Source: Gemmatimonas groenlandica
Lineage (GTDB): Bacteria; Gemmatimonadota; Gemmatimonadetes; Gemmatimonadales; Gemmatimonadaceae
DNA: 64,000 nucleotides
Assembly (NCBI RefSeq): GCF_013004105.1
Contig: NZ_CP053085.1
Coordinates: 3,224,001-3,288,000, forward strand
Direction: 5' to 3'
Positions 38,321-58,730 of this stretch are shown piece after piece; position 1 is the stretch's first letter; each line of letters starts with the position of its first letter. Under the pieces are notes generated by a model. That model saw only the letters and a program-made list of their open reading frames with translations. It ran no database searches and was not told the origin of the DNA. The position numbers and the translations under genes are program-made.

Positions 38321-38381
38321 GGCGTGGCCGCAGGATAAACTGATGCTGCTACATTTCTGGTAACCCGAACGGAGCTTGGCG

Positions 38382-38621
38382 ATGACCTGGCAAGACTTCA
38401 TCACGACAGACACCAGCGTTCTGGCGGGCAAGCCGGTTGTCCGCGGAACGCGGCTTGCTGCCGATTTCCTGCTTGGTCTTTTTGCCGCCGGCTGGACTCA
38501 GGAGCAAGTGTTGTCGAGCTACCCGCAGCTCACACCCGAGGCGCTCCGAGCCGTGTTCGCCTACGCGGCCGAAGTCACGCACGACGAGGCTATCCATCTG
38601 GTGAATCGCGGCGCAGCCTAA
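38382..38621 (+). CDS. DUF433 antitoxin
   Basis: 79 aa from the ATG at 38382 (GGAG seven bases before it). The DUF433 pattern is clear: ITTDTSVLAGKPVVRGTRLAADFLLGLFAAGWTQEQVLSSYPQLTPEALRAVFAYAAE. DUF433 proteins are winged-helix antitoxins that pair with DUF5615 PIN-like toxins, and such a gene starts 5 nt downstream. Confidence 0.93.
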   Translation: MTWQDFITTDTSVLAGKPVVRGTRLAADFLLGLFAAGWTQEQVLSSYPQLTPEALRAVFAYAAEVTHDEAIHLVNRGAA

Positions 38622-38626
38622 CAGTC

Positions 38627-38830
38627 ATGCGCCTCCTCGCCGACGAAAATGTGCCACTCCCTTCCATCTTCGCCCTCCGAACGGCAGGAATGGACGTGGC
38701 TGCTGCGACGGAGGACGCACCGGGGGCGAGCGACCGAGAGGTGCTGGCTCGCGCGCGGCGTGAAGGCCGAGTCCTCCTGACCTTCGATCAAGTGCGGCGA
38801 CGGCGCCTGCCCGGGCACCCGCTTCGATGA
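38627..38830 (+). CDS. DUF5615 PIN-like toxin, truncated
   Basis: 67 aa. The first 50 residues match DUF5615 (MRLLADENVPLPSIFALRTAGMDVAAATEDAPGASDREVLARARREGRVLLTFD). The family then normally continues with a DFGELV...RRGLP stretch to about 110 residues. Here FD is followed at once by QVRRRRLPGHPLR and a stop, as if an internal deletion joined two parts of the gene. The toxin is therefore probably inactive. Confidence 0.75.
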   Translation: MRLLADENVPLPSIFALRTAGMDVAAATEDAPGASDREVLARARREGRVLLTFDQVRRRRLPGHPLR

Positions 38831-42028: not shown

Positions 42029-42916
42029 CTAGTGGACGGCCACCTTTGGCGGGCCCGCGTTGAGCGCTCCCCCGATATGCTGGTGCGCTTGCACAGTGAG
42101 CTCACTAATCGCTGCGCAAAGCGCGCCAGATACCTGGACCGTGACTTCGACAGCGCGACGAACCGCGTTATCGAAGGGCTCCTCGAAATCATCAGGCTGC
42201 AATCTTCGAATCTGAGATTTGACAGTTGAGCAGAATGAAGTGATCTCGTCGTCGCTCGGAAGGTCGTCGCCCAAGATGTGCAGATATGCGAGGAGATCTG
42301 CCGTAGGATAATAGGTGTTCAGCGTGTTCCAGCCGCTCACATGCTCGAGAATCGCCATGGGGAGGTTGAGACCCGCGAGCGCCGTTTTCATTACTGCCTT
42401 GTCTGCGTGAAACGCGGTTTTATCTCGCGCCCGAGCGAAATAGCCCGACTTGACGCTGGCTGTTAGCGGATGTTCAAGAATGGCCTGGAGCGCCATGCTG
42501 TACTTCGCGAACTGCTCGTGCTTTACCACATCCGCTGCCACCTTCAGCGTCTCACACGTCATTGCGCCGATGAGCAGTCCACCGGTAATGCGACGTCGTA
42601 CAGATACGCTGTCATCATCTCCGATAGGATCGATCACCGCGTTCACAAGGAAGAGAAGGCTGTTGGTAAGCTTTGTGAGACGAAGCAGATCGACGAAAGC
42701 GGGCTCGGCGAGCTCCCGCCGGGCGATGTCGATCGGCAGCGCAATATGGCATTCCTTTCGAAGACTCTGACGGCGCCGAAAAGCGTGAGCATGCTGCTCA
42801 TCCGATACCTGCTCTTTGGCTTTCTGGTTCGACGCTTGACGCCGCTCCGCCGCCCTTTGCTTCTGTCGCCGTCTCTTTTCGTTCGGCTTCCCGTTCATCG
42901 GCGCCCTCCGGATCAT
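42029..42916 (-). CDS. Unknown protein at the end of the restriction operon
   Basis: 295 aa; an ATG at 42898 is an alternative start. The first 50 residues are Lys/Arg/Gln-rich and helical (KRRRQKQRAAERRQASNQKAKEQ). The rest looks alpha-helical: FVDLLRLTKLTNSLLFLVNAVID, RITGGLLIGAMTCETLKVAADVV and NTYYPTADLLAYLHILGDDLPSDDE. There is no signal peptide and no motif I know. It starts 5 nt after the hsdR stop on the same strand, so it is likely the last gene of the island transcript. Confidence 0.7.
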   Translation of the reverse strand: MIRRAPMNGKPNEKRRRQKQRAAERRQASNQKAKEQVSDEQHAHAFRRRQSLRKECHIALPIDIARRELAEPAFVDLLRLTKLTNSLLFLVNAVIDPIGDDDSVSVRRRITGGLLIGAMTCETLKVAADVVKHEQFAKYSMALQAILEHPLTASVKSGYFARARDKTAFHADKAVMKTALAGLNLPMAILEHVSGWNTLNTYYPTADLLAYLHILGDDLPSDDEITSFCSTVKSQIRRLQPDDFEEPFDNAVRRAVEVTVQVSGALCAAISELTVQAHQHIGGALNAGPPKVAVH

Positions 42917-42920
42917 GGCC

Positions 42921-45900
42921 CTACAGCGGACTCGTCATCTCATACACCATATCACCCACGAACCGCTTGAACGACTCGTTTTCCACGTACAGCTTGTAGA
43001 CCAGCGTGTCATCCTTCAGCAGGTGCTGCATGACGCGCCCGAGTGCCTGATCATGCGCCATGCGTGCGGTATGTGGAGTGTTCTCGCGCGCGTTCTGGTA
43101 GGCCGCATCGGCGGCAACCTTCGGAGCGATGTCTTCACGGATGCGCTTCGCCACGCGATCGGTATCGGTGAACAACGTTGAGAATTGCTCGTTGAACGAC
43201 TTCAGAATGATGCTGAGTCTATCCAACTCGGGCTCTGGGATAAAGCCGCCCGCCGTAGCGGGAACGGGAGCGATTTCCGCGTTCTTGTCCTCTAGGGCGA
43301 TCTTCATTACCGCCTTCTTCTCGACGCGGTAGCTGTCCATGTCGATTGCCTCGAGAATTCCTTTGGCAAGGTCCTCTTCCCTCGGCGCTGGCAATTTGGG
43401 CGTGAGAAGATCGAGGAAGATCGACAGCTTCTCCCACTCGACGTTGCTGTAAGGAATCACCGACGAGAGAAACGCGTAGGTGCGACAGAGCACCTTGGCC
43501 TTTCCCTTGAACGCCACCTGCGCCTCTTCATCAAGCTGCCCAACATAGACGGCCACGCACGCATCAAGAATCGGGTCGAGCTTGTCACGGTCCGCGCCAG
43601 CGAGGAACAGCTCAGCGAGCTTCTGCACCTGATCGGGCGCATACACTTGCGACGCATCCAGTGCCGTCTTGAGGTCGTGTAGCTTGTTCGGGTCTGTCTC
43701 GTCGGCCAACAGCGTCGTGCGATAATAGTCCTGAAAAGCGAACGTGATCGCTTCGCTATTGTTCTGGAAGTCGAGGACGAAGCAGTCGTGCTTCTGAGGG
43801 TGCGCGCGATTGAGACGGGACAGTGTCTGCACAGCCTTGATCCCCGAGAGCGGCTTATCCACGTACATCGTGTGCAAGAGTGGCTCATCGTATCCAGTTT
43901 GGAACTTGTCGGCGCAGATGAGGAAGCGATACGGGTCGACCTGGATCCTCGCAGCAATATCGCCGCTTGCGAATCCATTGAGCGACGATTCGCTCACCTT
44001 GCCGCTGCCGAAGTCGTGCTCTCCCGAGAAGGCAACGATGGCTTTGTACGGGCTCTTGCGCTCTGCAAGGTACGCGTTGAAAGCATCGAAGTACTGGATG
44101 GCCCGCTCGATACTGCTGCAGATCACCATCGCCCGAGCCTGCCCGCCGATCTTGCCAGCAGTAATCACCTGCTCGTGGAAGTGGTCTACCATGATCTCGG
44201 CTTTCAGCCGAATTGCGTGATCGTGGCTCTCCACGTACTTGCGCAATTTCTTCTTCGCCCGCTTGGTGTCGAATTCCGGATCGTTCTCGGTCTTCGCCAC
44301 CAGCTTGTAGTAGCTGGCCACCGGCGTGTACGCCTTGAGCACGTCAAGGATGAAGCCCTCCTCGACCGCCTGCTTCATCGTGTAAATGTGGAAGGGACGG
44401 TGCTTGACCTTGCCTTCACCGTCGGCGGGCAGCGCCTCGCCGAACATTTCCAACGTTTTGTTCTTGGGTGTAGCCGTGAACGCGAAGTAGCTGGCGTTCG
44501 TCAGCATTTTTCGCGCGGCCATACGCTTCTCGAGCGCGGCGTTGACCGTGTCCTCCGGGTCAGATGCTTCTTCCTCGTTCTCATCTGCATCGTGACCAGC
44601 ACGACCAAGCGTCTGGCTCATCGCCGCGGAGGTCTTCCCTCCCTGACTTGAATGCGCTTCGTCGATGACAATCGCGAACGCCTTTTCGCTCTCTGTCTCG
44701 ACTTCGTTCATGATGACCGGGAACTTCTGCACCGTCGAAACGATGATCTTCTTCCCCTGTTCGATGAACTTGCGCAGGTCACCTGAGCGCTCGGCATGAC
44801 CAACGGTGGCACCCACCTGCATGAATTGCTTGATGGTCGCCTGAATCTGGCTGTCGAGGATGCGCCGGTCAGTAACTACGATGACCGAGTCGAACACCGC
44901 TTTGTCATCGCGCTTGAGCCCAATGAGCTGGTGCGCCAGCCACGCGATGGAATTCGACTTGCCGCTCCCCGCCGAGTGCTGAATCAAGTAGCGCTTGCCG
45001 GCGCCATGTTCGCGCACGTCTGCCAGCGCCTCCCGTACGAGCCGGAGCTGGTGGAATCGCGGCCACACCTGGCTGCGCTTCTTCTTGCCAGTCTTGGGGT
45101 TCTTCTCCTCGACGATCTGCGCATAGTTCTCGAGAATGTTTGTCAGCCCCGCCGGCGTGAGGACCTCTTTCCACAGGTACTCGGTCTTGAGGCCGTACGG
45201 ATTTGGCGGGTTGCCTCCGCCATCGTTGTGTCCCGTGTTGAAGGGCAGGAACCAGGAGCCCTTCCCTCGTAACTCGGTGCACATGCGCACCTCGGCGTCG
45301 TCCACCGCGAAGTGCACCACGCAGCGCCCGAACTCGAAAATCCGTTCACGAGGGTCACGGTCGCGCTTATACTGTTCCACCGCGTCGGCGACGGTCTGCT
45401 TGGTGAGGCTGTTCTTCAGCTCGAAGGTGGCGATGGGCAAGCCGTTGATGAATAGCCCCAAATCGAGTGCGCGACGTGTTTCGTGGATGCTATAGGCAAG
45501 CTGGCGCGTGATCGAGAAGCGATTCGCCGAGTGCAACGCTTCGGCCTTGTCGTTACCCGCCGAAGGCGTGCCGTAGAACAACTCAAAGTGCAGCGGGCCG
45601 TGGTCAACGCCCTTCCGCAGCACATCGATCACGCCGCGTTTGCCAATCTCGCTCGAGAGGCGAGCGAGGAACTTGAGGCGGTTGATGTCCTTCGCGCCGT
45701 TGGCGCTGACTATCTCGAGCTTGGCGAACCTATCGGGCTGAGTGGCGCTCAGGAATGCGAAGAGCTGGGCCACGTCGAGCGCGTGCGCGCGGTCGAAGTC
45801 CTGCGGGCTGCCGGCGGTGTAACCGGTGCCACCGTATGCCGGCGGGCGTTCAGCCACGCGGTTCGGCGCTACGGCGAGGCCGGTGGTGCCGGTCATATGC

Positions 45901-45947
45901 CGGACGATGATGGACTCGAGTCCCCTTTCGCTGATGTCGGTGGTCAT
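42921..45947 (-). CDS. hsdR: Type I restriction enzyme, R subunit
   Basis: 1008 aa. The N-terminal nuclease region has LFINGLPIATFELKNSLT (E-x-K of the PD-D/ExK fold). The SF2 translocase follows with Walker A (HSAGSGKSNSIAW, about residue 325), DEAHSSQGG, the FAFTATPKNKTLE motif and SRLNRAHPQKHDCFVLDFQN. The C-terminal helical region binds the M/S core. HsdR cleaves DNA at a distance after ATP-driven translocation. Unlike the other subunits it is separated from the upstream genes by 357 bp holding a tandem repeat. GGGGA stands seven bases before its ATG. Confidence 0.95.
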   Translation of the reverse strand: MTTDISERGLESIIVRHMTGTTGLAVAPNRVAERPPAYGGTGYTAGSPQDFDRAHALDVAQLFAFLSATQPDRFAKLEIVSANGAKDINRLKFLARLSSEIGKRGVIDVLRKGVDHGPLHFELFYGTPSAGNDKAEALHSANRFSITRQLAYSIHETRRALDLGLFINGLPIATFELKNSLTKQTVADAVEQYKRDRDPRERIFEFGRCVVHFAVDDAEVRMCTELRGKGSWFLPFNTGHNDGGGNPPNPYGLKTEYLWKEVLTPAGLTNILENYAQIVEEKNPKTGKKKRSQVWPRFHQLRLVREALADVREHGAGKRYLIQHSAGSGKSNSIAWLAHQLIGLKRDDKAVFDSVIVVTDRRILDSQIQATIKQFMQVGATVGHAERSGDLRKFIEQGKKIIVSTVQKFPVIMNEVETESEKAFAIVIDEAHSSQGGKTSAAMSQTLGRAGHDADENEEEASDPEDTVNAALEKRMAARKMLTNASYFAFTATPKNKTLEMFGEALPADGEGKVKHRPFHIYTMKQAVEEGFILDVLKAYTPVASYYKLVAKTENDPEFDTKRAKKKLRKYVESHDHAIRLKAEIMVDHFHEQVITAGKIGGQARAMVICSSIERAIQYFDAFNAYLAERKSPYKAIVAFSGEHDFGSGKVSESSLNGFASGDIAARIQVDPYRFLICADKFQTGYDEPLLHTMYVDKPLSGIKAVQTLSRLNRAHPQKHDCFVLDFQNNSEAITFAFQDYYRTTLLADETDPNKLHDLKTALDASQVYAPDQVQKLAELFLAGADRDKLDPILDACVAVYVGQLDEEAQVAFKGKAKVLCRTYAFLSSVIPYSNVEWEKLSIFLDLLTPKLPAPREEDLAKGILEAIDMDSYRVEKKAVMKIALEDKNAEIAPVPATAGGFIPEPELDRLSIILKSFNEQFSTLFTDTDRVAKRIREDIAPKVAADAAYQNARENTPHTARMAHDQALGRVMQHLLKDDTLVYKLYVENESFKRFVGDMVYEMTSPL

Positions 45948-46160
45948 GTGTCATCCCCAAAGGCGCCCTGAGGTTTAGCCATCAAGCAACCATCAATCAA
46001 AGCAGAAATCGGTAAAACATTACCAGTGAATGACTTAGTTATGGCGCGCTCATCAATGAGACGCACGGCGATCAAGTACCCATCAAGTAAATTTCGTATC
46101 AGCACGTCGACGGCCGGTTTGGCGGAGTCGACCGACGGTCAGAGCAGTGACCGTCACCCC

Positions 46161-46196
46161 CTTTGCTAAACCCTTTGCTAAAACCTTTGCTAAACC
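46161..46196. repeat. Three 12-bp tandem repeats upstream of hsdR
   Basis: CTTTGCTAAACC is repeated three times (46161-46172, 46173-46184 with one or two changes, 46185-46196). A looser fourth half (AGCAAAGCGCTAAACCG) follows near 46217-46233. They sit in the 357-bp gap (45948-46304) between the AlbA-type gene and hsdR. Several CATCAAG motifs (45977, 46073, 46082) also occur there. No intact gene is seen in this gap, so it is probably the hsdR promoter region. Confidence 0.75.
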
Positions 46197-46304: not shown

Positions 46305-47993
46305 TCATGCACGCTTCGGTGCTGTCGAGATGGGCTTCTTGCTCACCCATTTCGACTTTGTTCGGGTGCCTTGGTTGACAATCTTTTCGGCATTCCGCAG
46401 CTCCTGCAGCAGGTTGTGGACCTTGCGCCGTTTCTGCACGTCGGACATCCGGTCTGGCAGTTTGGGCAGCAAGAGCTCGTCGACGTGCTGGCGCGCGACC
46501 GGACCGTGCTCCTGGATGAGGGCCAGGATCATGTCCAGATACCACTGCTTGTCGAAGCCGCGCTCACGGATATGCCGCGCCACGTCGCCGGTGGCCTTGG
46601 CCATGGTGCCGGACACCATGACGCTCGGATAGCGGCCCTCCACCAAGCCCGCCGACTTGAGTCGCTTGTGATCTTCGCGCGTGATCCGCCGGCCCTTCTG
46701 AATCCGATCAAGCAGCAGCACCTGCGGCAGCGACAAACTAGACTGCTCCATGAGCAGGCGTGTGTAGCGCTCGTCGAGAATCTGACCAGGAATGCTCACG
46801 CTGACCTGCCCAGGCTGATCGAGATCATAGTCGGGCAGCGGAAACGAGCGCCGACGTTGCGTCTCGAACATGCGCTTGATGCCACCGCCCTGCGTGTCGA
46901 TCAGGTTGAGCTCCACCATCGCATCGGCAAGGAACGGATTGCGATACAACAACTGCGGCGCATCCTGCTCGATCACCGTCTGCACGCTCCCTGGCAGAAA
47001 CTCTCCGATGTTGGTGATCAGCACGCGATCGGGGAACTCGACCACCGCGATCCGCGCATGACGTCGATAGTCCTGATGCGCGATGCTGTTGTGCAAGGCC
47101 TCACGGATCACCCATGGGTCGTACTGGGTGAGCTCCTGCGGAAAGAGTGTACCGCTCGGCAGTGCACGCACGGTGAGATTGCGCAAACGTTTCAGAAGCC
47201 GGTCACCCACCAGCAGGAATGGCGGCGCGAAATGCTCGTAATCCAGTTCGCGATTCTCCGCGTCCTTGAGCAGCCACGAGACCTTTGCGACGGCCGGTGT
47301 AAGCAGCGTGGCTGACTCGGCGCGGCCGAGCAGAACTAGCGCCGCGTTGGTCACCTCGCCCTGCTTCAGCAATCGCGCCTTGTTCAGAAACGTCAGGTCA
47401 TCCCACTGCGCCAGTTCGCCGGACTGCGACGGATGCTTGACGAGGAACTGCTCCCGCGCCTTGGCAATCGCTTCGGGATTAAGATCGGCCAGCGTGGCAC
47501 GGTGACACGTTTCAGCAGACCAATCGCTGCCGCGTGTCCACAGGGCACGCTCCTTGGCCGGGTGTTTGACCAGTTCCGTCTTGCTGTTCCCAACACGGCA
47601 GTAGGCAACACCCGCAAACGTGCAGGGCCGGTCCCGTGCGGGGCCAACGGCGAGCATCACGACCCGACCGTCCGGATGATCAACGAGATGTACGTCGATT
47701 CCAGGATTCGGCTCAAGTAGTGCACCGAGCCAAGGCAGAAGGCCTTGGTTGCCTTTGGCCTTCGCTGCATACGGATCGAACGACGTACCCACGACGTCGT
47801 GCGTTGCATCGTCGATACCGAACACCAGATAGCCACGCGGCTGATTGCACAATCCTGCCTCATTCGCCAACGCCGAGAGGTACTCGCCGATCTGTTGCGG
47901 GTCGGTGTTGTTGCGCTTGAACTCCAGCCACTCGGTTTCAGTGGGGAGCGCACGCAACCGGTCGACGAGGGTGCTGAGATCGTTGGGGTTCAT
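46305..47993 (-). CDS. AlbA-domain (Schlafen-like) ATP-binding protein
   Basis: 562 aa. The N-terminal AlbA_2 domain has ETEWLEFKRNNTDPQQIGEYLSALANEAGL and GYLVFGIDDATHDVVG, the Schlafen/AlbA_2 core. A GHKL-like ATP-binding part follows: WVIREALHNSIAHQDYRRHARIAVVEF with ITNIGEFLPGS, then IDTQGGGIKRMFE. C-terminal winged-helix segments are suggested by LLLDRIQKGRRITREDHKRLKSAGLVEGR. Such proteins are frequent companions of type I restriction loci and are sometimes labelled RecG-like, which is misleading. It overlaps hsdS by 4 nt (ATGA). Confidence 0.82.
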   Translation of the reverse strand: MNPNDLSTLVDRLRALPTETEWLEFKRNNTDPQQIGEYLSALANEAGLCNQPRGYLVFGIDDATHDVVGTSFDPYAAKAKGNQGLLPWLGALLEPNPGIDVHLVDHPDGRVVMLAVGPARDRPCTFAGVAYCRVGNSKTELVKHPAKERALWTRGSDWSAETCHRATLADLNPEAIAKAREQFLVKHPSQSGELAQWDDLTFLNKARLLKQGEVTNAALVLLGRAESATLLTPAVAKVSWLLKDAENRELDYEHFAPPFLLVGDRLLKRLRNLTVRALPSGTLFPQELTQYDPWVIREALHNSIAHQDYRRHARIAVVEFPDRVLITNIGEFLPGSVQTVIEQDAPQLLYRNPFLADAMVELNLIDTQGGGIKRMFETQRRRSFPLPDYDLDQPGQVSVSIPGQILDERYTRLLMEQSSLSLPQVLLLDRIQKGRRITREDHKRLKSAGLVEGRYPSVMVSGTMAKATGDVARHIRERGFDKQWYLDMILALIQEHGPVARQHVDELLLPKLPDRMSDVQKRRKVHNLLQELRNAEKIVNQGTRTKSKWVSKKPISTAPKRA

Positions 47994-49405
47994 GCGACGA
48001 TCATCTCTTCATCGGTGATGTCGGCGGCGTCGACCGGATCGTTATCGTGCTCGATGATGTCGAGTGAAGCTTCGAAGGGCAGACGCGCTGCGGCCTCACG
48101 CACGTCGAGCTTGCCGGTCACGACGTCCGCGACGAGGCGAGTGCGGTATTCGCGGAGGAGGTCGATCTCGCGCTCTAGACGGGAGGTAGCGTACTCAAGT
48201 GGCTGCGATTGCGATTCGATATAGTTAACAATGCGTTCCTGCTCCTCAAGGGGACACCACAGCAACGGAAGCCCCGTAACCTGGCCGAGCCGTAAGTGTC
48301 CGACTGTGCTTCCATTAGCCTCAATATCGATGTAACGCCGAACAAGAGGTCCATAGATGCTGTGCAGCAGGAACGAAGCGTTGAGTTCCGACGTGTTCGG
48401 CCTGAAGAACATCATTCGTTGGCCCATGCATAGGTTATGCGCAGCAGGGACATGACAAGCTTCTCCTACTGGGGCTTCACGAGTAAAGAAGACATCGCCC
48501 CGTCGCGGTGCGCCACGTTGCGTCCAAAGCAAGAAATTTGCGCGGTTTGTAGCGTACGACCCCTTTGGGTTAAATCGACCATTCCGAATGTTCGTTGTAC
48601 GAACGACGATGTACTCGCCGTCGTCGATAAGCTCTGGTGTTCTGTTCTTGCAGTCGATGATCTCTGCGCACAATTGCTTGGCTCGCCGCACCTCCCAATG
48701 CGCCGGGATCTCCCCGAGCCACGGGATGCCGGAGGGCTTTAGCGGCACGGCGGGATCGAGGCCGCGGGTAACGGCGCGGTGAATGATGGCCTGCTTCTGC
48801 TCGCCCAGCAGAGCGATCACGATCCGCTTCGCCCGGATCGCCCGCTCCAGCCGCCCGTTCACCCAGTCCAGGAACCGCACGATTGCGGCTTGTTCGGCGG
48901 GGGGAGGCACCAACGCTTCGATACGTCCGAGGTCGTCGGAGTAGAGCCTGAGGCGACTTTCCACAACTCCGGTCGAAGACGCCTTTATCCGTGCCTTGTA
49001 CGCGGGCGAGCGCAGGAGATGGTGGTAGTACCAAGGCTGTGCGTCAGGATTTAAGCGGTATACGCAGTAAGCCGGACTGGATATTCCCGCGTATCTCGAG
49101 ACACCCATGCTTCCGTTCCACGCCAGCATGATGTTGATGACTAGGTCATCGGGTTCAACACACTTGTAGCCGACGAGGGAATCAGCGCGCGTGCCTATCC
49201 CTTCGGGTCCATATGCGCTGTTGCGCTGAGTGACGCCGGTGTACTGCGAAACGCGAAGAAGCTGCTCTTCGCCGGTAGTTGATCGACGGTCTGTTTCTCG
49301 CAACAAGTACTTTGTGCGGCGAACGCCCCAGTGTGCTGGCACATCACCAAGCCATCCTCCTTCGGCTGCGCGGTACTCAGGATACGGCTTGAGGTCCGCG
49401 ATCAC
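47990..49405 (-). CDS. hsdS: Type I restriction enzyme, specificity subunit
   Basis: 471 aa from a GTG at 49405 (VIADLKPYPEYR), chosen because HsdS proteins of this class start MIxDLKPYP and because it gives a GTGA overlap with herA; the frame is open to 49456. Two target-recognition halves are each introduced by a WLG(D/E)(V/I)PAHW motif (near residues 20 and 235). Each is closed by a conserved helix (EQAAIVRFLDWVNGRLERAI; EEQERIVNYIESQSQPLEYATSRLEREIDLLREYRTRLVADVVTGKLDVR). It sets the DNA site for both modification and cleavage. The target site cannot be read from the sequence. Confidence 0.95.
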   Translation of the reverse strand: MIADLKPYPEYRAAEGGWLGDVPAHWGVRRTKYLLRETDRRSTTGEEQLLRVSQYTGVTQRNSAYGPEGIGTRADSLVGYKCVEPDDLVINIMLAWNGSMGVSRYAGISSPAYCVYRLNPDAQPWYYHHLLRSPAYKARIKASSTGVVESRLRLYSDDLGRIEALVPPPAEQAAIVRFLDWVNGRLERAIRAKRIVIALLGEQKQAIIHRAVTRGLDPAVPLKPSGIPWLGEIPAHWEVRRAKQLCAEIIDCKNRTPELIDDGEYIVVRTTNIRNGRFNPKGSYATNRANFLLWTQRGAPRRGDVFFTREAPVGEACHVPAAHNLCMGQRMMFFRPNTSELNASFLLHSIYGPLVRRYIDIEANGSTVGHLRLGQVTGLPLLWCPLEEQERIVNYIESQSQPLEYATSRLEREIDLLREYRTRLVADVVTGKLDVREAAARLPFEASLDIIEHDNDPVDAADITDEEMIVA

Positions 49406-51516
49406 GACTCGAACTCCACGGAGCTTATACTTTGGGCGGACGGACCCACCTGCCAATCAGTAGCGATCTTCTCCCAGCCTGTTGCCCGTGAGATAGCGTT
49501 GCCGTGCTCATCCTGACCAATCCACACACCCCAAAACTCTGGGTCGTCGGAGCGAGGCTGTTGCGACTTGGGCAACTCGTTCATTTTGACCAGCACCGGC
49601 AGCTCTGACGCCCAGCCGAGTAGAATCGCGTTTTGCGAGGGAAGCGAGGGCAATTCGCGGAGCAGTCCGCGAAGATTGTCAGGGACGAGCCGTTGCACTA
49701 GCTCTTGGTCGCGGTCGTTGCTAATTCGGTGAAGCAGAAACGTGTTGCACTGAGACAGCACCGTGGGCGAAAGCTCAGAGGGGCGCTGCGACGATAGGAC
49801 CAAGCCGAGTCCGAATTTACGCCCCTCACGGGCAATGCGTTCGAAGACCTGACAGCAGATGCCGGCAGCGTCCTGATTCTCGACATCTTCCTTGTAGCGC
49901 TTGATGAAGGTATGCGCCTCTTCCATCACTAGCACGGTGGGTAGCGCGACACCATTCAGCTTTACGTACCGTTGCGATGCTTCGAACACCATTCGGGCGA
50001 TGACGGCGGTAACGACGTGCACGACTTCTGTGGGTACAAGCGACAGGTCTATCACTGATACGCATCCGCCATCGGCGTTGTCGTCGCCAATGTAGCCATT
50101 CAACCATTGCTGAAGCGTCATCGCCCCCACATCACCCATAATTGGCTTCATCCGGGTGTCGGTGAGAAGCGCACGGATTCTGACCAGGAGGGTCTCGATG
50201 TGTTCGGAGACGTTTAGCATTTCACCTGCCGCCTCGACGCCACGGAGCAACGATGCGCCTTCGAAGGGTCTGGGCGCGTCCACGTCCGCCGGAATCACAT
50301 CCTTGGCTGTCCCACCGAATGCGGCATGAGCTTCGCTCGTAGCCGTGAGAAGTTCTTGGACTTCGGGCTTGGTGAAATCCTGATGTGCGTACTGAATCCG
50401 ACGAGGCACGCACAGACCTTCAAGCTTGTCGATCAGCGCATTTAGCCGTGCGTGCTGGTCACCCGTGAAGGAGCTCAGTTCCGGCTCCAAACCCTTCTTC
50501 CACTTTTCCAGCTTCTCGAAGAAGCCTTTGGGTTTCGGGAACGATCCCCACGGCGCACCGGAGTTCTGCTCGATGCGTATCGTCGTTACCAGCGTACGGA
50601 GAAACCGGCGCATGTCGTGACTTGCATCCGCAGTTGGTTCGGTCTGGCCGTCACGAACAACTCGAAGGGCGTGCATTAGCGCCGGCCGCTGGGTTTTCGA
50701 ACTCGCCTGAGTGAACGAGCACCACTCCGCGCTGTTCCAGAACCACAAGGGCACCTTCAATGCGTTTTCACCTTCGCTCGGGTTCACCTTGAAGATCCGT
50801 GCCTTGATTGCATCGTCACCACCGAACGCACGCGAATACTCGCCGTTCGGGTCGAGCACGATGAACCGGGCGTTCGGTCGCCCTTCCGCACCTGCTTGCG
50901 CACGCTCCTGCGCTGCTTGCTCCAGGCTCCAGCGGATAAGTCCAGCAACCGAGCAGGACTTGCCGCTTCCAGTGTTCCCCAGCACGGCGAGGTGCCGCCC
51001 AAATAGACGATTGGGGTCAATGGACACCACGGCATCACCAGCGAGCGGGCTGGTACCGATCTTCACCCGGCGTCGTTCTCCGGACTCGACGATCGAGCGA
51101 AGCTGGTTGTCAGTAGGCAGAAGGACGGCGGCGCCAATCGAGGGCAAACCGTCCGCGCCGCGGCGGAAGGCGTACCCTACGTTTTGTGTGTGCCGGCGGA
51201 GCGTACCGAGTGGGTTGAGCCGCAACCTGCGCAGCGGAAAGGGCAGATCCACCAAACCGAAGTCCTGCATTCCGCGCCGCTTCGGAAACGCCGAGCGTTC
51301 GACGGTCAGCCACTCAACCTGTCCAACGAGGAAGGCGTCATCGACCGGAACCAAGAGGTAACCGTTGACCCTAGGAAACGGTCGTGGACCTCCAGCATTT
51401 AACGCGACCGACTCAGGCGCCTCAATATCCAAGGCGACCTTGATTTCGTCCGGCGAGACGAAGTCCACCGCACCAACACGAAGGCTGCCAGCTTGCTCGA
51501 ACGGCGCTTGGCTCAT
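49402..51516 (-). CDS. herA: HerA-type ATPase, partner of SIR2
   Basis: 704 aa. A beta-barrel N-terminus (residues 1-150) resembles the HAS-barrel of HerA. Walker A is AVLGNTGSGKSCSVAGL (about 177-193), and a Walker B-like segment is VLVMEEAHTFIKRYKED. An arginine-finger region is GLGLVLSSQRPSELSPTVLSQCNTFLLHRI. HerA forms a hexameric ATPase ring. Its gene follows the SIR2 gene with a 1-nt overlap (TAATG) and precedes hsdS with a 4-nt overlap. SIR2-HerA pairs are known anti-phage systems, here lodged inside the restriction operon. Confidence 0.92.
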   Translation of the reverse strand: MSQAPFEQAGSLRVGAVDFVSPDEIKVALDIEAPESVALNAGGPRPFPRVNGYLLVPVDDAFLVGQVEWLTVERSAFPKRRGMQDFGLVDLPFPLRRLRLNPLGTLRRHTQNVGYAFRRGADGLPSIGAAVLLPTDNQLRSIVESGERRRVKIGTSPLAGDAVVSIDPNRLFGRHLAVLGNTGSGKSCSVAGLIRWSLEQAAQERAQAGAEGRPNARFIVLDPNGEYSRAFGGDDAIKARIFKVNPSEGENALKVPLWFWNSAEWCSFTQASSKTQRPALMHALRVVRDGQTEPTADASHDMRRFLRTLVTTIRIEQNSGAPWGSFPKPKGFFEKLEKWKKGLEPELSSFTGDQHARLNALIDKLEGLCVPRRIQYAHQDFTKPEVQELLTATSEAHAAFGGTAKDVIPADVDAPRPFEGASLLRGVEAAGEMLNVSEHIETLLVRIRALLTDTRMKPIMGDVGAMTLQQWLNGYIGDDNADGGCVSVIDLSLVPTEVVHVVTAVIARMVFEASQRYVKLNGVALPTVLVMEEAHTFIKRYKEDVENQDAAGICCQVFERIAREGRKFGLGLVLSSQRPSELSPTVLSQCNTFLLHRISNDRDQELVQRLVPDNLRGLLRELPSLPSQNAILLGWASELPVLVKMNELPKSQQPRSDDPEFWGVWIGQDEHGNAISRATGWEKIATDWQVGPSAQSISSVEFES

Positions 51517-52946
51517 TATGTCGAGCCCTCACCGCTGGCGGGCGGGACTTCAGATTCGGTGGCAGGCCGCGGTTCTGTGCCCCAGCGCGCCTTGAGCAGC
51601 TCCGCCATCCGAAAGGTCGTGCGATCAATCGCAGGCTTCGGTAGGTAGTGATCAACAAGCGCCTGCAAGTCACCCAAATGGTTACCGATAAGTAGCGTGA
51701 CCTGAGCGTGCCTGCCCAATCGCTCGTACGTGCGCATGATGCGGCCTAGCGGATCACCGTGGGCGATGACAACCAGGTGCGCTGACGGGATCGTCAACAT
51801 GTCCTCAATTACGCGATTGATGTGCTCGTCGCCAAAGCTGTAGCCGTAGCAGACTACGGTGCTATTCGGACGGCAGATTGAAGCAGCAAAGTCCCTAAAC
51901 AATTCGACGTAGGGGAACGCCGTCGTCTCGCGGTCCTTGGCGGCGTTGGGGTAAATCATCAGCGCTGAGGCATCGACGCCGGTGAGGCCAGGTGCCGCCA
52001 CGAAGGGCCTGATGTCCTCAGCGCCAAAGGGCAGGCCGATCCGACGGATGGCGCCATCGCTCGCGAGCCAGTCGACCGAACCGTGGAGCTTGGTGAACCT
52101 CGCGACGCCTTCTAGGTAGCGGGGCTCCCCGCGGATGCCGGGCGGGTTGTAGTGTAGGTCCACGTCGAGGCGCGACGCGCGGAACACGGGGGCCAGGGTG
52201 CCTACGAAGCGGTCGATGAGACGTAGGCCCGCCACGTCCGCACCGGCCTCGATAAACCGATCGTAGTTGGTGGTGAATAGCTGCAATCGCTCGCGGGTGC
52301 CAGCACGACTCGCAAAGCTCAACAAGAAGCTGGTGAGGTAGTTGAATGCGTCTTCACGCTTTGTTGCCTCGGCTTCCGCTAGGCTTCGTTCGCCCTGAAG
52401 GATTGACATGGCGAACGACTTGAGGATGCCCTCCAGGTCACTTCGCAGAGCTGAAGCTTGATTCTTCTGCTCAGAGTCATTCTCCTTCGGCGCCGCCAGT
52501 ATCTCTAGGCCACGAAGCAATTCGTTCGCGACCCGAATCTGATCCTCGAAGTTCCCATTTTCGCGCCCTGCGGCGCTAGCGGCACGGGTCACTTCGCCTG
52601 CTATCTCATCGTCCAGCGTCTGGAAAGTGACGCCGCTCATTCCCGGAAGACCCGCGCCAGTCCCGAGCCAGTGGACCGCGTGCGTGAGACCAGAGCCAAC
52701 AAGCAACGATAGGTGCTCGGATTGCACCAGGGCCGTCAGCCAAGGCTCGATTCGCGGACGCAGCCTCTCGGGTCCGAATGTCTCCGCGGACTTTGCCCAA
52801 GAACACTGCGCGCCTGCGGGCAAGGTGAACAAATCGGGTCCAGTGGATTCCACAGTGCGATTCAGGAAGACCGGCCCGTGATCGTCTCGAGTCTTCAGTA
52901 CCTGCCCGCCGGATTTCAGGTGCTCCTTGAGTTCCCCAACAGTCAT
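51516..52946 (-). CDS. SIR2-domain NADase-like defence effector
   Basis: 476 aa. SIR2 motifs: LLVGSGLTHA (83-86, NAD loop), LFTTNYDRFIE (225-229, TxNxD), TKLHGSVDW (catalytic His, 288) and CYGYSFGDEHINRVIEDML (368-377, a usual SIR2_2 feature). Residues 1-70 form a separate N-terminal part with little similarity I know. In SIR2-HerA systems SIR2 depletes NAD+ on phage attack. The start overlaps the hsdM stop (ATGA) and the stop overlaps the herA start, so it is translated in a fixed ratio with both. Confidence 0.9.
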   Translation of the reverse strand: MTVGELKEHLKSGGQVLKTRDDHGPVFLNRTVESTGPDLFTLPAGAQCSWAKSAETFGPERLRPRIEPWLTALVQSEHLSLLVGSGLTHAVHWLGTGAGLPGMSGVTFQTLDDEIAGEVTRAASAAGRENGNFEDQIRVANELLRGLEILAAPKENDSEQKNQASALRSDLEGILKSFAMSILQGERSLAEAEATKREDAFNYLTSFLLSFASRAGTRERLQLFTTNYDRFIEAGADVAGLRLIDRFVGTLAPVFRASRLDVDLHYNPPGIRGEPRYLEGVARFTKLHGSVDWLASDGAIRRIGLPFGAEDIRPFVAAPGLTGVDASALMIYPNAAKDRETTAFPYVELFRDFAASICRPNSTVVCYGYSFGDEHINRVIEDMLTIPSAHLVVIAHGDPLGRIMRTYERLGRHAQVTLLIGNHLGDLQALVDHYLPKPAIDRTTFRMAELLKARWGTEPRPATESEVPPASGEGST

Positions 52947-55300
52947 ATCTTTACTCCCGCAGTGATTCCTGCCAGCAGACCTTCTGCCTCCTTCTCAATT
53001 GCCATGATGTCCGCGCTGATCTCCTCGAGCGTCCGCAGCGGCTGCGGCTTGTAGAAGTGCCGAGTAAAGCTCACCTCGTAGCCAATCTTGGTGGCGTCCT
53101 CCTTGATCCACGCATCAGCTGTGTACGGAAGCACCTCGCGGCGAACGAACACCTCGATGCCGCCCTCCTCCAGCAGTGGCACTTGCTCGGTGTCGCGCAG
53201 ATCGGCGTCGGGCTCAAACTCCACCACCGCCGCTTTGTTGTTTACGGTGACTTCGTAAAATCCGCGCAGTGGATGGGGTTTCACCTTGCCCAGCTTGTGC
53301 ACCTTGGCGATCACCGGCGGGGCGCTTTCCTCACGCCAGCTCACGGCTTTGAGAATCAGTTTGAGTTCTGGGGCCGACAGCTTGATCTTCGCCTTGGTCA
53401 GCGCCACGTTCACGCGATCGCGAAAGACGTTGTGGTCTTCGTACAGCGCATCGCCAAGGGCGTCACGTAGCATCGTCGCGACTTCCACCAACCGCGCGTC
53501 GCGCTCCCACGACTTGGCGTCGAGCAGCTTCTTGCGCTTCTTCTCGGGCAGACCCTTCTTGCTGCCGCCGCCCTCCTCGTCATCCGCGTCGTCTTCATCG
53601 GATCCCCACTCAGCCAGCCGCTGTTCAAGCGCCGTCGAGAGCCGCGCGAAGTCGGTCACCAGCGCGTTACCGAACTCTTCGTACAGCACCGAGCGAATCT
53701 CCTCGTCGCCTGACGCAACGCGCAGCGACTCGATCGCGCCGGGGGTGAGGCGACTGTGCAGCCGCAGCGGACGCTCCACGGTGACCTTCCAGTAGCCGAA
53801 CGCTTCATTGGGGAAGATCTTTGATTCGGGTGTCTCGTTGAATTCAAGAAACGTCTGGTTGATGCGCGCGACATCGTCTGGCGAAAGCTCGCAGTTCTTC
53901 TTGCCGAGGTTCTTGCGCAGCGGCTTGAACCACTGCGAGGCATCGATGAGCTGCACCTGTCCCTTGCGGTGCGCCGGCTTGCGGTTGCTCAGCACCCAGA
54001 TGTACGTCGCGATGCCAGTGTTGTAGAAGAGATTGAGCGGCAACGCAACAATGGCCTCGAGCCAATCGTTCTCTATCAGCCAGCGGCGGATGTTACTTTC
54101 GCCCTGGCCCGCGTCGCCGGTGAAGAGCGACGAGCCATTGTGCACTTCGGCGATGCGGCTGCCGAGTGCCGACGTGTCGTTCATCTTCGACGCCATGTTG
54201 GCGAGGAAGAGCATCTGCCCGTCGCTGGACCGGGTGACCAGAGACAGCTCCTCACCCCGATGCATCACCTTGAAGCGCGGATCGCGCATGCCGTCTTTGC
54301 CGCCCATGGCCTCGAGGTCCTTCTTCCAGCTCTTCCCGTAGGGCGGGTTGGCGAGCATGAAGTCGAACTCCTGCGCGGGGAATGCATCGTGCGCGAGCGT
54401 GGACCACTCCGCTCCGCCTACGATGTGATCCGCGTTCTCGCCCTCGCCCTTGAGGAGCATGTCGGCCTTGCAGACTGCGTACGTCTCGGGATTGATCTCC
54501 TGACCGTACAGGAGGCTCTTGACCTGTTGGCCGTGCTTAGCGGCAATTGACCTCAGCGTCTCCTCGGCGACTGTGAGCATGCCACCGGTGCCGCAGGCGC
54601 AATCGTACAGCAGGTAGGTGCCCGACTTGATCTCGTGCTCGATCGGCAGGAACACGAGGTTCGCCATGAGCCGGACCGCATCACGCGGGGTCCAGTGCTC
54701 ACCGGCTTCCTCGTTGTTCTCTTCGTTGAACTTGCGAACCAGCTCCTCAAAGACCGTACCCATGGCATGATTGTCGATGCCAGCAGGGGATAGGTCGATT
54801 AATGGATCGAGGAACTTGGAAATCAGCGTGCCAAGCGAGTCTGAGCGAGAGAGTGTCTGAAGCTGGTTACGGAACTTGAAGTTCTCGAGAATGTCCTGAA
54901 CGTTCGACGAGAAGCCGTTCAGGTAGTCCTCGAAGTCCGACAAGAGCTGCTGTTGGCTTCCTCGTGAGGTCAGGTCACGCAGGGTGAACTTGGACGTGTT
55001 GTAGAAGGCCTGTCCCGCTGCATCCGCGAGCGCCGCGCGCTGCTCAGTGATGCCCGCTTCGTCCAACATGTTCCGTGTGGCAAGCACGCGCGCCTTGGTC
55101 GGCTCGAGCACGGCGTCCATGCGCCGAATGACACACATCGGCAGAATGACATCCGGGTACTTTCCGCGCTTGAACAAGTCGCGCAGGACATCGTCCGCGA
55201 TACCCCAGATGAACGAGACGATCTTGTTGTGGGTGGCCTGGTCCACTGGTCTATTCGCTCCAAGTTCATTTAAGGAGAAGCTCGGCGGATACTCGAGCAT
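52943..55300 (-). CDS. hsdM: Type I restriction enzyme, methyltransferase subunit
   Basis: 785 aa from the ATG at 55300; a longer frame to 55495 exists but reads as non-coding Arg/Ser-rich sequence. The N-terminal helical domain (FIWGIADDVLRDLFKRGKYPDVILPMCVIRRMD) is typical. SAM motif I is DCACGTGGMLTVAEE (about 233), and the catalytic motif is LANPPYGKSWKKD (about 318), for N6-adenine methylation. After about residue 560 comes an acidic then basic linker (DEDDADDEEGGGSKKGLPEKKRKK) and an extra C-terminal domain of about 200 residues. HsdM of common families is about 500-550 aa, so this is a long form. Confidence 0.95.
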   Translation of the reverse strand: MLEYPPSFSLNELGANRPVDQATHNKIVSFIWGIADDVLRDLFKRGKYPDVILPMCVIRRMDAVLEPTKARVLATRNMLDEAGITEQRAALADAAGQAFYNTSKFTLRDLTSRGSQQQLLSDFEDYLNGFSSNVQDILENFKFRNQLQTLSRSDSLGTLISKFLDPLIDLSPAGIDNHAMGTVFEELVRKFNEENNEEAGEHWTPRDAVRLMANLVFLPIEHEIKSGTYLLYDCACGTGGMLTVAEETLRSIAAKHGQQVKSLLYGQEINPETYAVCKADMLLKGEGENADHIVGGAEWSTLAHDAFPAQEFDFMLANPPYGKSWKKDLEAMGGKDGMRDPRFKVMHRGEELSLVTRSSDGQMLFLANMASKMNDTSALGSRIAEVHNGSSLFTGDAGQGESNIRRWLIENDWLEAIVALPLNLFYNTGIATYIWVLSNRKPAHRKGQVQLIDASQWFKPLRKNLGKKNCELSPDDVARINQTFLEFNETPESKIFPNEAFGYWKVTVERPLRLHSRLTPGAIESLRVASGDEEIRSVLYEEFGNALVTDFARLSTALEQRLAEWGSDEDDADDEEGGGSKKGLPEKKRKKLLDAKSWERDARLVEVATMLRDALGDALYEDHNVFRDRVNVALTKAKIKLSAPELKLILKAVSWREESAPPVIAKVHKLGKVKPHPLRGFYEVTVNNKAAVVEFEPDADLRDTEQVPLLEEGGIEVFVRREVLPYTADAWIKEDATKIGYEVSFTRHFYKPQPLRTLEEISADIMAIEKEAEGLLAGITAGVKI

Positions 55301-55509: not shown

Positions 55510-58347
55510 CTATTCCTTGCCGACAATCGCCAGCGCATCCCAGTGAAAGATGGCAGCGAACGGGACTTCCGTGACCTCTTCGGTCTTCTGGCCGATTTGC
55601 ACCCGTATATCGGCGACCTTACGTCGTGGGTCCACACGAACGAGTTTGGCCGCCAAGGGCTCATTGGGAAAGCCGCGGATCGTGGGCGCATATACCGCGA
55701 CTGCGCTCCTAGGCTTCAAGTCACGCGACTTGAGCGGACGCATGTCAGGGAGTGCGTTCGGCTCGAACCTGTATTCCGCGCGCCCGAACTCATCATCGCC
55801 AGATGCCATAACGGCGAGGCGCTGAATTTGGGCAGCCCGATCGCCGTTCTGGGCCGACCGTATCTGTGCAAATAGCGCTGAGGCGTGCCCCTCAAGCCAC
55901 TCTCGCGGATTCCCCGACCGAAGATGGATGCGCCACTCCCGGCGCCTTGGCCCCCGAGCTCCCGTTTCGATGTGGTCGACGGCAGCGCACTGAAAGAACA
56001 TGTTGATCGTTCGACGGAGATCGCGTTCCAGCTGATCCGGATTTGACGACGCAAATCCGCTGGGGAACTCAAGCGGCGGTACGGCACGAAGTAGTGTTGC
56101 CGTTCGTCGAAAATGCATCTCCCGAATGCTCTTGTCCCGGTTACAGGTAGAGCAGAGCGTTTGAAGGTTATTGGGCTCATTGGTGCCCCCATGATATCGC
56201 GCTACAATGTGGTCAACCTGCAGTGTGCGCGAGTTTGACGAGCCGCAACAGAGGCATCGATTGCCGTCTCTCCGAAACACCTCCCTTTTCGCGGACTCGC
56301 TCGGCTCTGAGTCCGGCAGCACAGCGGGCGGAGCAATCACCGGTGATGTAGGGCCAATGATCCCCACGCCGGTGGTTCGCTGCAGTTGTCCCTCAACGAG
56401 GTGACGAAACTGGTGGCGAAACAGATCGAATGTTGGAAAGAGGGCACGCCAGAATCGCTGCTCATCCTCGTACACGGTGCTGAGATACTTCCACGTTTGG
56501 CTAGGACCCCAGTCCTCGACCGTCGCTTGCCGAGCGGCCAGCGTGAGATCGTGCGCTTCCCGATGTTCAAACGGAAAGAAGGGCGGCGCCTCACCGGCCC
56601 GCTGCCCGACGTGTCGAGCGAGATGGAAAAGACTCATACCAATACCGCTGGCGTTCTGCTCCTTGTTCGCGAAGAAGAATGCAGTCCATTCATCGATCTG
56701 TGCCGAGACCGCGTTGTAACGCAAACCGGGGTCGGCGAAGGGACGAATGTCTGATGAACACAGATGCTTGAGGAAGGCGTCATAGCTTGCCTTCTCATCT
56801 TCGTGCACTAAGACCATCGGGCGAACGTGCGCTGTATCGTCAGTTTCAGCCACCTCGACATCAAAGTCAGAGACGAACCAACCAAGCGGCAGAAGCTCCA
56901 AGAAGGACGCTGGCGCGAGTTGTCCGGTCTCCATCTGTCGCGCGAGTCGCCGAACGAGCTCAATCGAGACCAGCTGCAGGGGCAGCTCACGGCGCGCCGG
57001 CCGCGCCTCTTGGCTTTCCGCACCGGTCCACAGGTCGTCGAACTCGGCCCACTGGATGGCCTCACGCCATTGGTCCATGAATAGCACGATGTTCGCCGTC
57101 GTCGTGCCACCGAATTTCGGCCCCCGAAGCGCGCGCCCAACCATCTGCCGCAGCAATATCGGACTTGTCGTCTGCCTCGTGAGGAAGACGGTCTGCACGT
57201 TGGGAACGTCCGTGCCCTCTGTGAGCATGCGGACGTTGATCAGTACATCAAGCTCGCCGTCGTGAAATGCCTTCAAAACGAGCGCATTGGCATCTCGGGA
57301 TCTGCGGTTTCGCTCCTCAACGGTACCCGGACCGCGGTCTACATGTGAATACACGGCGTTCGCCCGTACGCCGTTCTCTCGCAACTTCTCGCAAAGATAT
57401 TCACACTGGTGCCATCGGTCAGCAAAGATGATTGTCTTGCCGAAGTCGGCGCGCCGCTCCACGTAGGTGCGCCAGATCGTATCATTCCGCTCTTGGTTCT
57501 CAGCGAGTTGTGTAATGATGTCGTCCGGAACGTCTTGGTACATGGCGCGCCATCGCTGAAACTTCGCCGCGTCAAATCGCGGCTCGAACTTTGTGCGGCA
57601 CGGAATGGGAATGGGCTTCGCGAGAATACCCTGGGCAATTAGCCGAGACGCACTCACCTGATAGAGGATCTTCTGGGGAAAGAGCTTCGCGAGCCAACCT
57701 TCACGCTTCGTGTCGTTGTACATGGGCGTTGCCGTAAGGCCCATCAGCTTCATTCCCGGGATCTGTCGACGGAGCGACAGCAGGAATTCCGTGTACGAGG
57801 GGGCTGGCGCATGATGCGCCTCGTCAAACACAACAACAAGCTTCCCCTTCGCTGACTCGAGGAATGCTTGTAGCTGCGCATGACCCTCACGATAGGCCCG
57901 CGCCGCCGTCTGCAACGTAGCAATTACGACGTCATCGTTCTGAGAGACCGCAGCGATTCGGCTGTGGCCGTGCGTGCCGGACACCACGCGAGCACGCAGC
58001 CGCTCACGCGGCTCACGGATGTGGCCAACCTCGAGTCGTGCACCGTCACTTCGCTTCCCAAAGCTATCGAGCGCCTGCTCAAGCAAATGGTGCGTGTGCG
58101 CGAGCCAGAGCACCTTATAGCCTTCACTGAGCGGGTTGCGGCAGAGGAACCGAACGGCCGTGAACGTCTTTCCCGCCCCCGTTGGCAAGACCAACAATCC
58201 ACCAGAGTCAACGGTCGACTGCGCTGAATACCACTTGCTGAGCTCTGAGAGCGCTTCCGTTTGGTGCGCCGCCTCCTCACGACCGGACGGCTGCTTGCGC
58301 GCCTCGTCCAGGTTGTACTCTCGCTCCCACTCACTCAACGCACCCAT
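55510..58347 (-). CDS. SF2 helicase fused to an HNH endonuclease
   Basis: About 945 aa from the ATG at 58347 (GGGAG six bases upstream). Helicase motifs: LPTGAGKTFTAVRF (about residue 55), LWLAHTHHLLEQ, VVFDEAHHAPAPSY, GLTATPMYNDT, FADRWHQCEYL, and QMVGRALRGPKFGGT. Around residues 680-735 is an HNH domain (REVFRRDGNRCLCCGSSNSR, VDHIVARYHGGTNEPNNLQTLCSTCNRDKS) with two CxxC-type zinc pairs. About 200 further C-terminal residues are unknown. It is the first large gene of the minus-strand island, 210 bp before hsdM. A role as a nuclease in defence is inference. Confidence 0.88.
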   Translation of the reverse strand: MGALSEWEREYNLDEARKQPSGREEAAHQTEALSELSKWYSAQSTVDSGGLLVLPTGAGKTFTAVRFLCRNPLSEGYKVLWLAHTHHLLEQALDSFGKRSDGARLEVGHIREPRERLRARVVSGTHGHSRIAAVSQNDDVVIATLQTAARAYREGHAQLQAFLESAKGKLVVVFDEAHHAPAPSYTEFLLSLRRQIPGMKLMGLTATPMYNDTKREGWLAKLFPQKILYQVSASRLIAQGILAKPIPIPCRTKFEPRFDAAKFQRWRAMYQDVPDDIITQLAENQERNDTIWRTYVERRADFGKTIIFADRWHQCEYLCEKLRENGVRANAVYSHVDRGPGTVEERNRRSRDANALVLKAFHDGELDVLINVRMLTEGTDVPNVQTVFLTRQTTSPILLRQMVGRALRGPKFGGTTTANIVLFMDQWREAIQWAEFDDLWTGAESQEARPARRELPLQLVSIELVRRLARQMETGQLAPASFLELLPLGWFVSDFDVEVAETDDTAHVRPMVLVHEDEKASYDAFLKHLCSSDIRPFADPGLRYNAVSAQIDEWTAFFFANKEQNASGIGMSLFHLARHVGQRAGEAPPFFPFEHREAHDLTLAARQATVEDWGPSQTWKYLSTVYEDEQRFWRALFPTFDLFRHQFRHLVEGQLQRTTGVGIIGPTSPVIAPPAVLPDSEPSESAKREVFRRDGNRCLCCGSSNSRTLQVDHIVARYHGGTNEPNNLQTLCSTCNRDKSIREMHFRRTATLLRAVPPLEFPSGFASSNPDQLERDLRRTINMFFQCAAVDHIETGARGPRRREWRIHLRSGNPREWLEGHASALFAQIRSAQNGDRAAQIQRLAVMASGDDEFGRAEYRFEPNALPDMRPLKSRDLKPRSAVAVYAPTIRGFPNEPLAAKLVRVDPRRKVADIRVQIGQKTEEVTEVPFAAIFHWDALAIVGKE

Positions 58348-58416
58348 TGAATACTCCCGTTGGTTTGATCCAGCATCGCGCGCAACCCGCACTTGCCCCT
58401 TGCCACAAACGGTCAG

Positions 58417-58614
58417 CTATTTCTTCTGCCGCTTTCCGTTCTCCTTCATATATGCGGCGAATGCTTCAAGACTGAGCCCATACCAGTCTCGTGAGTTTGA
58501 TGGAGCCCAGAGCACGCCGCTGGGTTTGACGCGAATATGTCCGACCACCTTTCCGTCCTCGTCGACGATCTCGTGGTCCTCGAATTTGCGCGGCTTGAAA
58601 TTGTTCTTAGACAT
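58417..58614 (-). CDS. Small unknown protein upstream of the helicase-HNH gene
   Basis: 65 aa from the ATG at 58614 (AGAG five bases before it). The sequence SKNNFKPRKFEDHEIVDEDGKVVGHIRVKPSGVLWAPSNSRDWYGLSLEAFAAYMKENG suggests a beta-strand pair followed by a helix, like a small nucleic-acid or modification-linked protein. I know no family. It lies 69 nt before the helicase-HNH start on the same strand, so it may be the first gene of the island operon. Confidence 0.6.
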   Translation of the reverse strand: MSKNNFKPRKFEDHEIVDEDGKVVGHIRVKPSGVLWAPSNSRDWYGLSLEAFAAYMKENGKRQKK

Positions 58615-58730
58615 AGACACTCTTGATTGATGGCTGATTGGAAATGCGAATTTCCATTGTCCGGCTTCACCCTTTGAATGTCAAGCGATCGACTCTCAAG
58701 TTCGCTAGACGTCGCAGGCGCGTCTGACAA

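Follow-up and report, generated by a model that had tools for sequence, protein, structure and literature searches.

In the eukaryotic SNF2-HNH protein ZRANB3 a single chain carries both an SF2 motor and an HNH domain of the zinc type; the enzyme cuts only while it hydrolyses ATP and is the precedent for ATP-dependent cutting by a helicase-HNH protein (PMC5481773). Fusions of an HKD nuclease and an SF2 helicase of the PbeA type, known from Dnd/CxC-ATPase loci, are likewise single-chain nuclease-helicases encoded near DNA-modification genes (PMC10853773). A similar helicase core is found in the DNA repair helicase RadD (YejH) and in the SauUSI-type type IV enzymes, single chains of ~950 residues (PDB 7clg; PADLOC mREase_IV). 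We take 7clg to be SauUSI itself, the nuclease of which is of the PLD type, and RadD has no HNH domain.

The gene analysed here lies in a 64,000-nucleotide window (the whole stretch of DNA that was studied) of the Gemmatimonas groenlandica genome and differs from all of these. Like ZRANB3 its product bears a zinc-type HNH domain on the motor chain, but the motor is ResIII/RadD-like and not SNF2-like (ResIII E 2e-22 versus SNF2-rel_dom E 0.018), ~200 residues follow the HNH domain and the cellular role is probably different. The best PADLOC match of the helicase part is PbeA-type; here, however, an HNH domain stands behind the helicase, no HKD match was obtained, phosphorothioation genes are missing and no Dnd or CxC genes were seen among the neighbours searched. 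The matches to SauUSI are limited to the helicase part and the nuclease type differs, and assignment as RadD was rejected with 61.6 bits against an NCBIfam equivalog cut-off of 720. The type I subunit HsdR (no HSDR_N match; the real hsdR is located at 42921–45947) and the GmrSD type IV enzymes (no GmrSD_N or GmrSD_C match in the protein) were also rejected. No PADLOC model covers the protein in full length, no curated family spans it, and nothing direct was found in the literature on helicase-HNH defence proteins.

Anatomy of the helicase-HNH protein

55510–58347, minus strand: SF2 helicase-HNH fusion, 945 residues from the ATG
Domain map (ATG numbering): RecA1 ~27–225; RecA2 ~291–425; middle region 426–680; HNH 681–745; tail 746–945
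56100–56305, minus strand: zinc-type HNH domain, intact, residues ~698–740, from Pfam PF01844 and PDB matches
55510–56109, minus strand: C-terminal ~200 residues without a recognised domain

The open frame on the minus strand extends from 58392 to 55510 and would have 960 codons if begun at GTG; a start at the ATG (58347), which has GGGAG a little upstream, gives the 945-residue product. The first-pass annotation had described a helicase core joined to an HNH nuclease with zinc-binding cysteine pairs, and Pfam agrees with this (ResIII E 2e-22, Helicase_C E 3e-12, HNH E 8e-12). The SF2 core motifs are intact, with the Walker A motif GAGKT at residue 57, DEAHH at 175, TATP at 205 and QMVGRALRGP in the motif VI region at 404, and profile and PDB matches show a core similar to those of RadD, XPB and Hef-like helicases. 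In the HNH domain the motifs CLCCG (698), DHI (712, within VDHI), NNLQ (726) and CSTCN (732) provide the two CxxC zinc pairs C698/C701 and C732/C735 together with DH 712–713, N727 and N736; its PDB matches are the HNH domains of IscB, Cas9-type proteins and ZRANB3. The C-terminal ~200 residues, already noted as unrecognised, indeed gave no match in Pfam or PDB. Two structure predictions reached pLDDT values of 32 and 59, which are too low for a reliable fold.

All helicase and HNH motifs recur in two relatives with 43–45% identity, and a chance reading frame is therefore excluded. Compared with these relatives, the RecA domains (56–66% identity) and the HNH domain (52%) are the best conserved parts, whereas the middle region (about 30%) and the tail (about 25%) are poorly conserved; within the tail ~85 residues are weakly shared, and most of the final ~115 have no counterpart in the relatives. 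The comparison is one of three full-length sequences, and the poorly conserved middle and tail are candidates for recognition regions.

Relatives and distribution

The two relatives (WP_027479745.1 and AWT37349.1, without a named function) are located on two Deinococcus plasmids and were the only full-length relatives found. They show the same domain order, are without most of the C-terminal ~115 residues and are encoded by solitary genes, with neither type I genes nor a homologue of the 65-residue protein described below nearby, and no stable partner was found at these loci. The D. actinosclerus copy has a Snf2 fragment, a NERD-UvrD helicase and a BrxH/DrmD-like helicase within ~15 kb, and the D. 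radiodurans copy stands among metabolic genes without a defence neighbour. Relatives that are chromosomal housekeeping genes unlinked to defence had been named in advance as the finding that would speak against a defence role; the relatives found are on plasmids and not housekeeping genes, although one of them has the non-defence surroundings.

The gene is rare. It occurs in one of 298 genomes of the phylum and one of 179 genomes of the family, both times in the genome of the window itself, and nearly all genomes searched at genus, family and phylum level lack it. Phages and viral contigs gave ordinary helicase-domain or HNH-domain matches only and no full-length relative. This picture is drawn from the phylum of the window's genome, from plasmids and from phages and viral contigs; all-bacteria coverage comes from one weak scan (one sequence together with six peptides specific to the window), which returned one irrelevant match. 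A search of the phylum of L013, run without a positive control, was empty.

A DNA-repair or recombination enzyme would be one explanation for these data, namely a structure-specific nuclease comparable to ZRANB3 and RadD that acts on stalled forks or breaks and is carried by plasmids and islands because it is useful in repair. The likeness of the core to RadD, XPB and Hef-like helicases, an HNH domain similar to that of ZRANB3 among others and the occurrence in Deinococcus, once in a non-defence setting, agree with this idea. We nevertheless regard it as unlikely, as the gene is missing from nearly all genomes of its genus, family and phylum, sits in a defence island of foreign composition (see below) and falls far below the RadD equivalog cut-off.

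The upstream gene and the type I island

58656–58684, minus strand: promoter-like TTGACA-17-GACAAT upstream of the small gene, a consensus match only (one found, 0.9 expected)
58640–58655, strand not assigned: perfect palindrome GGAAAT-N4-ATTTCC, situated downstream of the promoter-like site and ahead of the small gene, a candidate operator
58417–58614, minus strand: 65-residue protein of a phage-borne family under strong purifying selection

The first-pass annotation had also proposed a small partner protein 69 nt ahead of the helicase. The small gene is real (ATG at 58614, stop at 58417, 69 nt before the helicase ATG), and among the copies compared synonymous sites are saturated with nonsynonymous differences of only ~0.18, which shows that it is functional. 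The partnership itself did not hold up. Proteins with 68–77% identity come from six contigs of viral or prophage origin. In L015 the gene neighbours a serine recombinase, in L016–L019 it lies on the opposite strand, flanked by the terminase and portal genes, and L174 is a prophage that also has terminase and integrase genes; the helicase-HNH gene was not seen on any of the six (for L174, not among the listed frames). Together with the two Deinococcus loci, which lack the small gene, these few loci show no co-occurrence of the two genes. The small gene thus looks like an unrelated phage-borne passenger. The family as such is highly conserved and carried by unrelated phages, and might represent a moron gene.

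A two-gene unit, in which the 65-residue protein regulates, inhibits or targets the helicase-nuclease like an antitoxin or an RptR-like regulator at the head of the island, is accordingly quite improbable. Features that would fit such a unit are the shared strand with 69 nt between the genes, and the promoter-like site and palindrome ahead of the small gene, both observed at consensus level; an E. coli type I island is opened by a 9-kDa regulator (PMC12255303). Against it stand the six contigs with their three different settings and the Deinococcus loci; moreover, no similarity of the small protein to a known regulator was found and the palindrome was not found near the phage copies. Six of 100 shuffles of the whole window contain a palindrome of this type.

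Both genes are part of a ~17-kb low-GC island which holds, downstream of the helicase and on the same strand, the following genes in this order:

52943–55300, minus strand: hsdM, probable start between 55300 and 55246
51516–52946, minus strand: SIR2 protein of a SIR2-HerA pair
49402–51516, minus strand: HerA ATPase of the same pair
47990–49456, minus strand: hsdS
46305–47993, minus strand: AlbA_2/HATPase_c_4 protein, with a 78% identical copy in L165
42921–45947, minus strand: hsdR, the real type I motor-nuclease
42029–42916, minus strand: 295-residue protein without a family match, last gene of the island

From ~41.5 to ~58.8 kb the GC content is 57–62%, compared with 61–68% (mostly 64–67%) outside. 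GC3 is ~0.66–0.71 for the small gene, helicase (0.68), SIR2 (0.71), HerA (0.68) and hsdS and 0.75 for AlbA_2, while hsdM and hsdR (0.79–0.80) are close to the flanks (0.81–0.84). By composition the helicase-HNH gene is foreign cargo. In a comparison for an empty site the matches of the two flanks fell on different contigs.

HsdM and HsdR are 80–84% identical in other genomes of the family, where the helicase and SIR2-HerA are missing. In those or slightly more distant operons the interval between hsdM and hsdS is occupied by GmrSD-type enzymes or AAA_13 (RloC-like) proteins, and such type I loci therefore gather defence genes (L165 10974–12773, L166 9128–11230, L168 2110–4704, L169 8459–13052 and L170 8966–10762). 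In the window the same interval holds the SIR2-HerA pair (49402–52946), and such pairs stand alone on many plasmids. Defence systems embedded in type I operons have been shown experimentally for TgvAB of V. cholerae (PMC11411939) and DarTG2 of E. coli (PMC12255303). Since type I loci carry such varied cargo, the helicase-HNH gene looks like a further piece of it.

Its position immediately upstream of hsdM had suggested a defence nuclease, either separate or an accessory to the restriction complex. hsdM is indeed the next gene on the same strand, yet a loose neighbour: 209–263 nt separate the helicase stop from the probable hsdM start, whereas the genes from hsdM through AlbA_2 overlap or abut. 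That it acts as an accessory or back-up nuclease of the type I complex, for example by cutting DNA stalled or displaced by HsdR, is quite improbable despite its place next to hsdM in the same island and the back-up nucleases described beside BREX and Dnd modification loci (PMC12839542, PMC10853773), given this gap, the closest type I operons without the gene and relatives without type I neighbours. Of the two options raised at first, a separate system or an accessory, the same evidence favours the former and leaves the latter unsupported.

Some further observations concern the surroundings. The AlbA_2/HATPase_c_4 gene between hsdS and hsdR accompanies the type I operon more steadily than the helicase does. 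In the 357-nt gap ahead of hsdR the exact sequence TTTAGCAAAGG is repeated three times at a 12-nt period (46160–46194; 0.14 matches expected), and the element is also present in a relative, L165 (15975–15985), in the same gap; the repeats are possibly sites for a regulator. The 295-residue gene starts 4 nt after hsdR at the far end of the island. At 38380–38830 a small gene precedes a short or truncated one, and by eye the two resemble a DUF433/DUF5615 toxin-antitoxin pair.

A proposed role

With moderate confidence we favour a self-contained ATP-dependent DNA endonuclease, a mobile, stand-alone, restriction-like factor against invaders that sits as foreign cargo upstream of a type I locus and is neither a subunit of the type I complex nor a partner of the 65-residue protein. 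Nuclease activity, coupling of motor and nuclease and a defence role are what we infer for it; the early suggestion of a defence nuclease that unwinds or translocates on DNA fits the motor-nuclease anatomy and the island setting to this extent. The SF2 core of the RadD/ResIII type would load on duplex DNA and move along or open it, substrate choice would rest with the middle and C-terminal regions, and the fused HNH domain would cut the invading DNA while the motor runs, in an ATP-dependent manner as in ZRANB3. More tentatively, the gene could be a single-gene restriction system, with a RadD-like motor, an HNH nuclease and a variable middle and tail choosing the target, that plasmids and islands have carried into distant phyla. 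Among the points against a stand-alone defence factor are that the D. radiodurans copy lies among metabolic genes, as a repair enzyme might, that no PADLOC model spans the whole protein and that transcription of the window copy may read through into hsdM on the same strand.

On the best reading, the protein is a variation on the theme of helicase-nuclease effectors, encoded next to a type I locus in which defence cargo accumulates. If it is true that phage DNA is restricted, an HNH version would be added to the single-chain helicase-nuclease effectors, whose members known to date have HKD/PLD or PD-(D/E)XK nucleases, and the protein would be a prokaryotic counterpart in design to ZRANB3. Neighbours of type I operons can be independent cargo, and position alone should not imply partnership.
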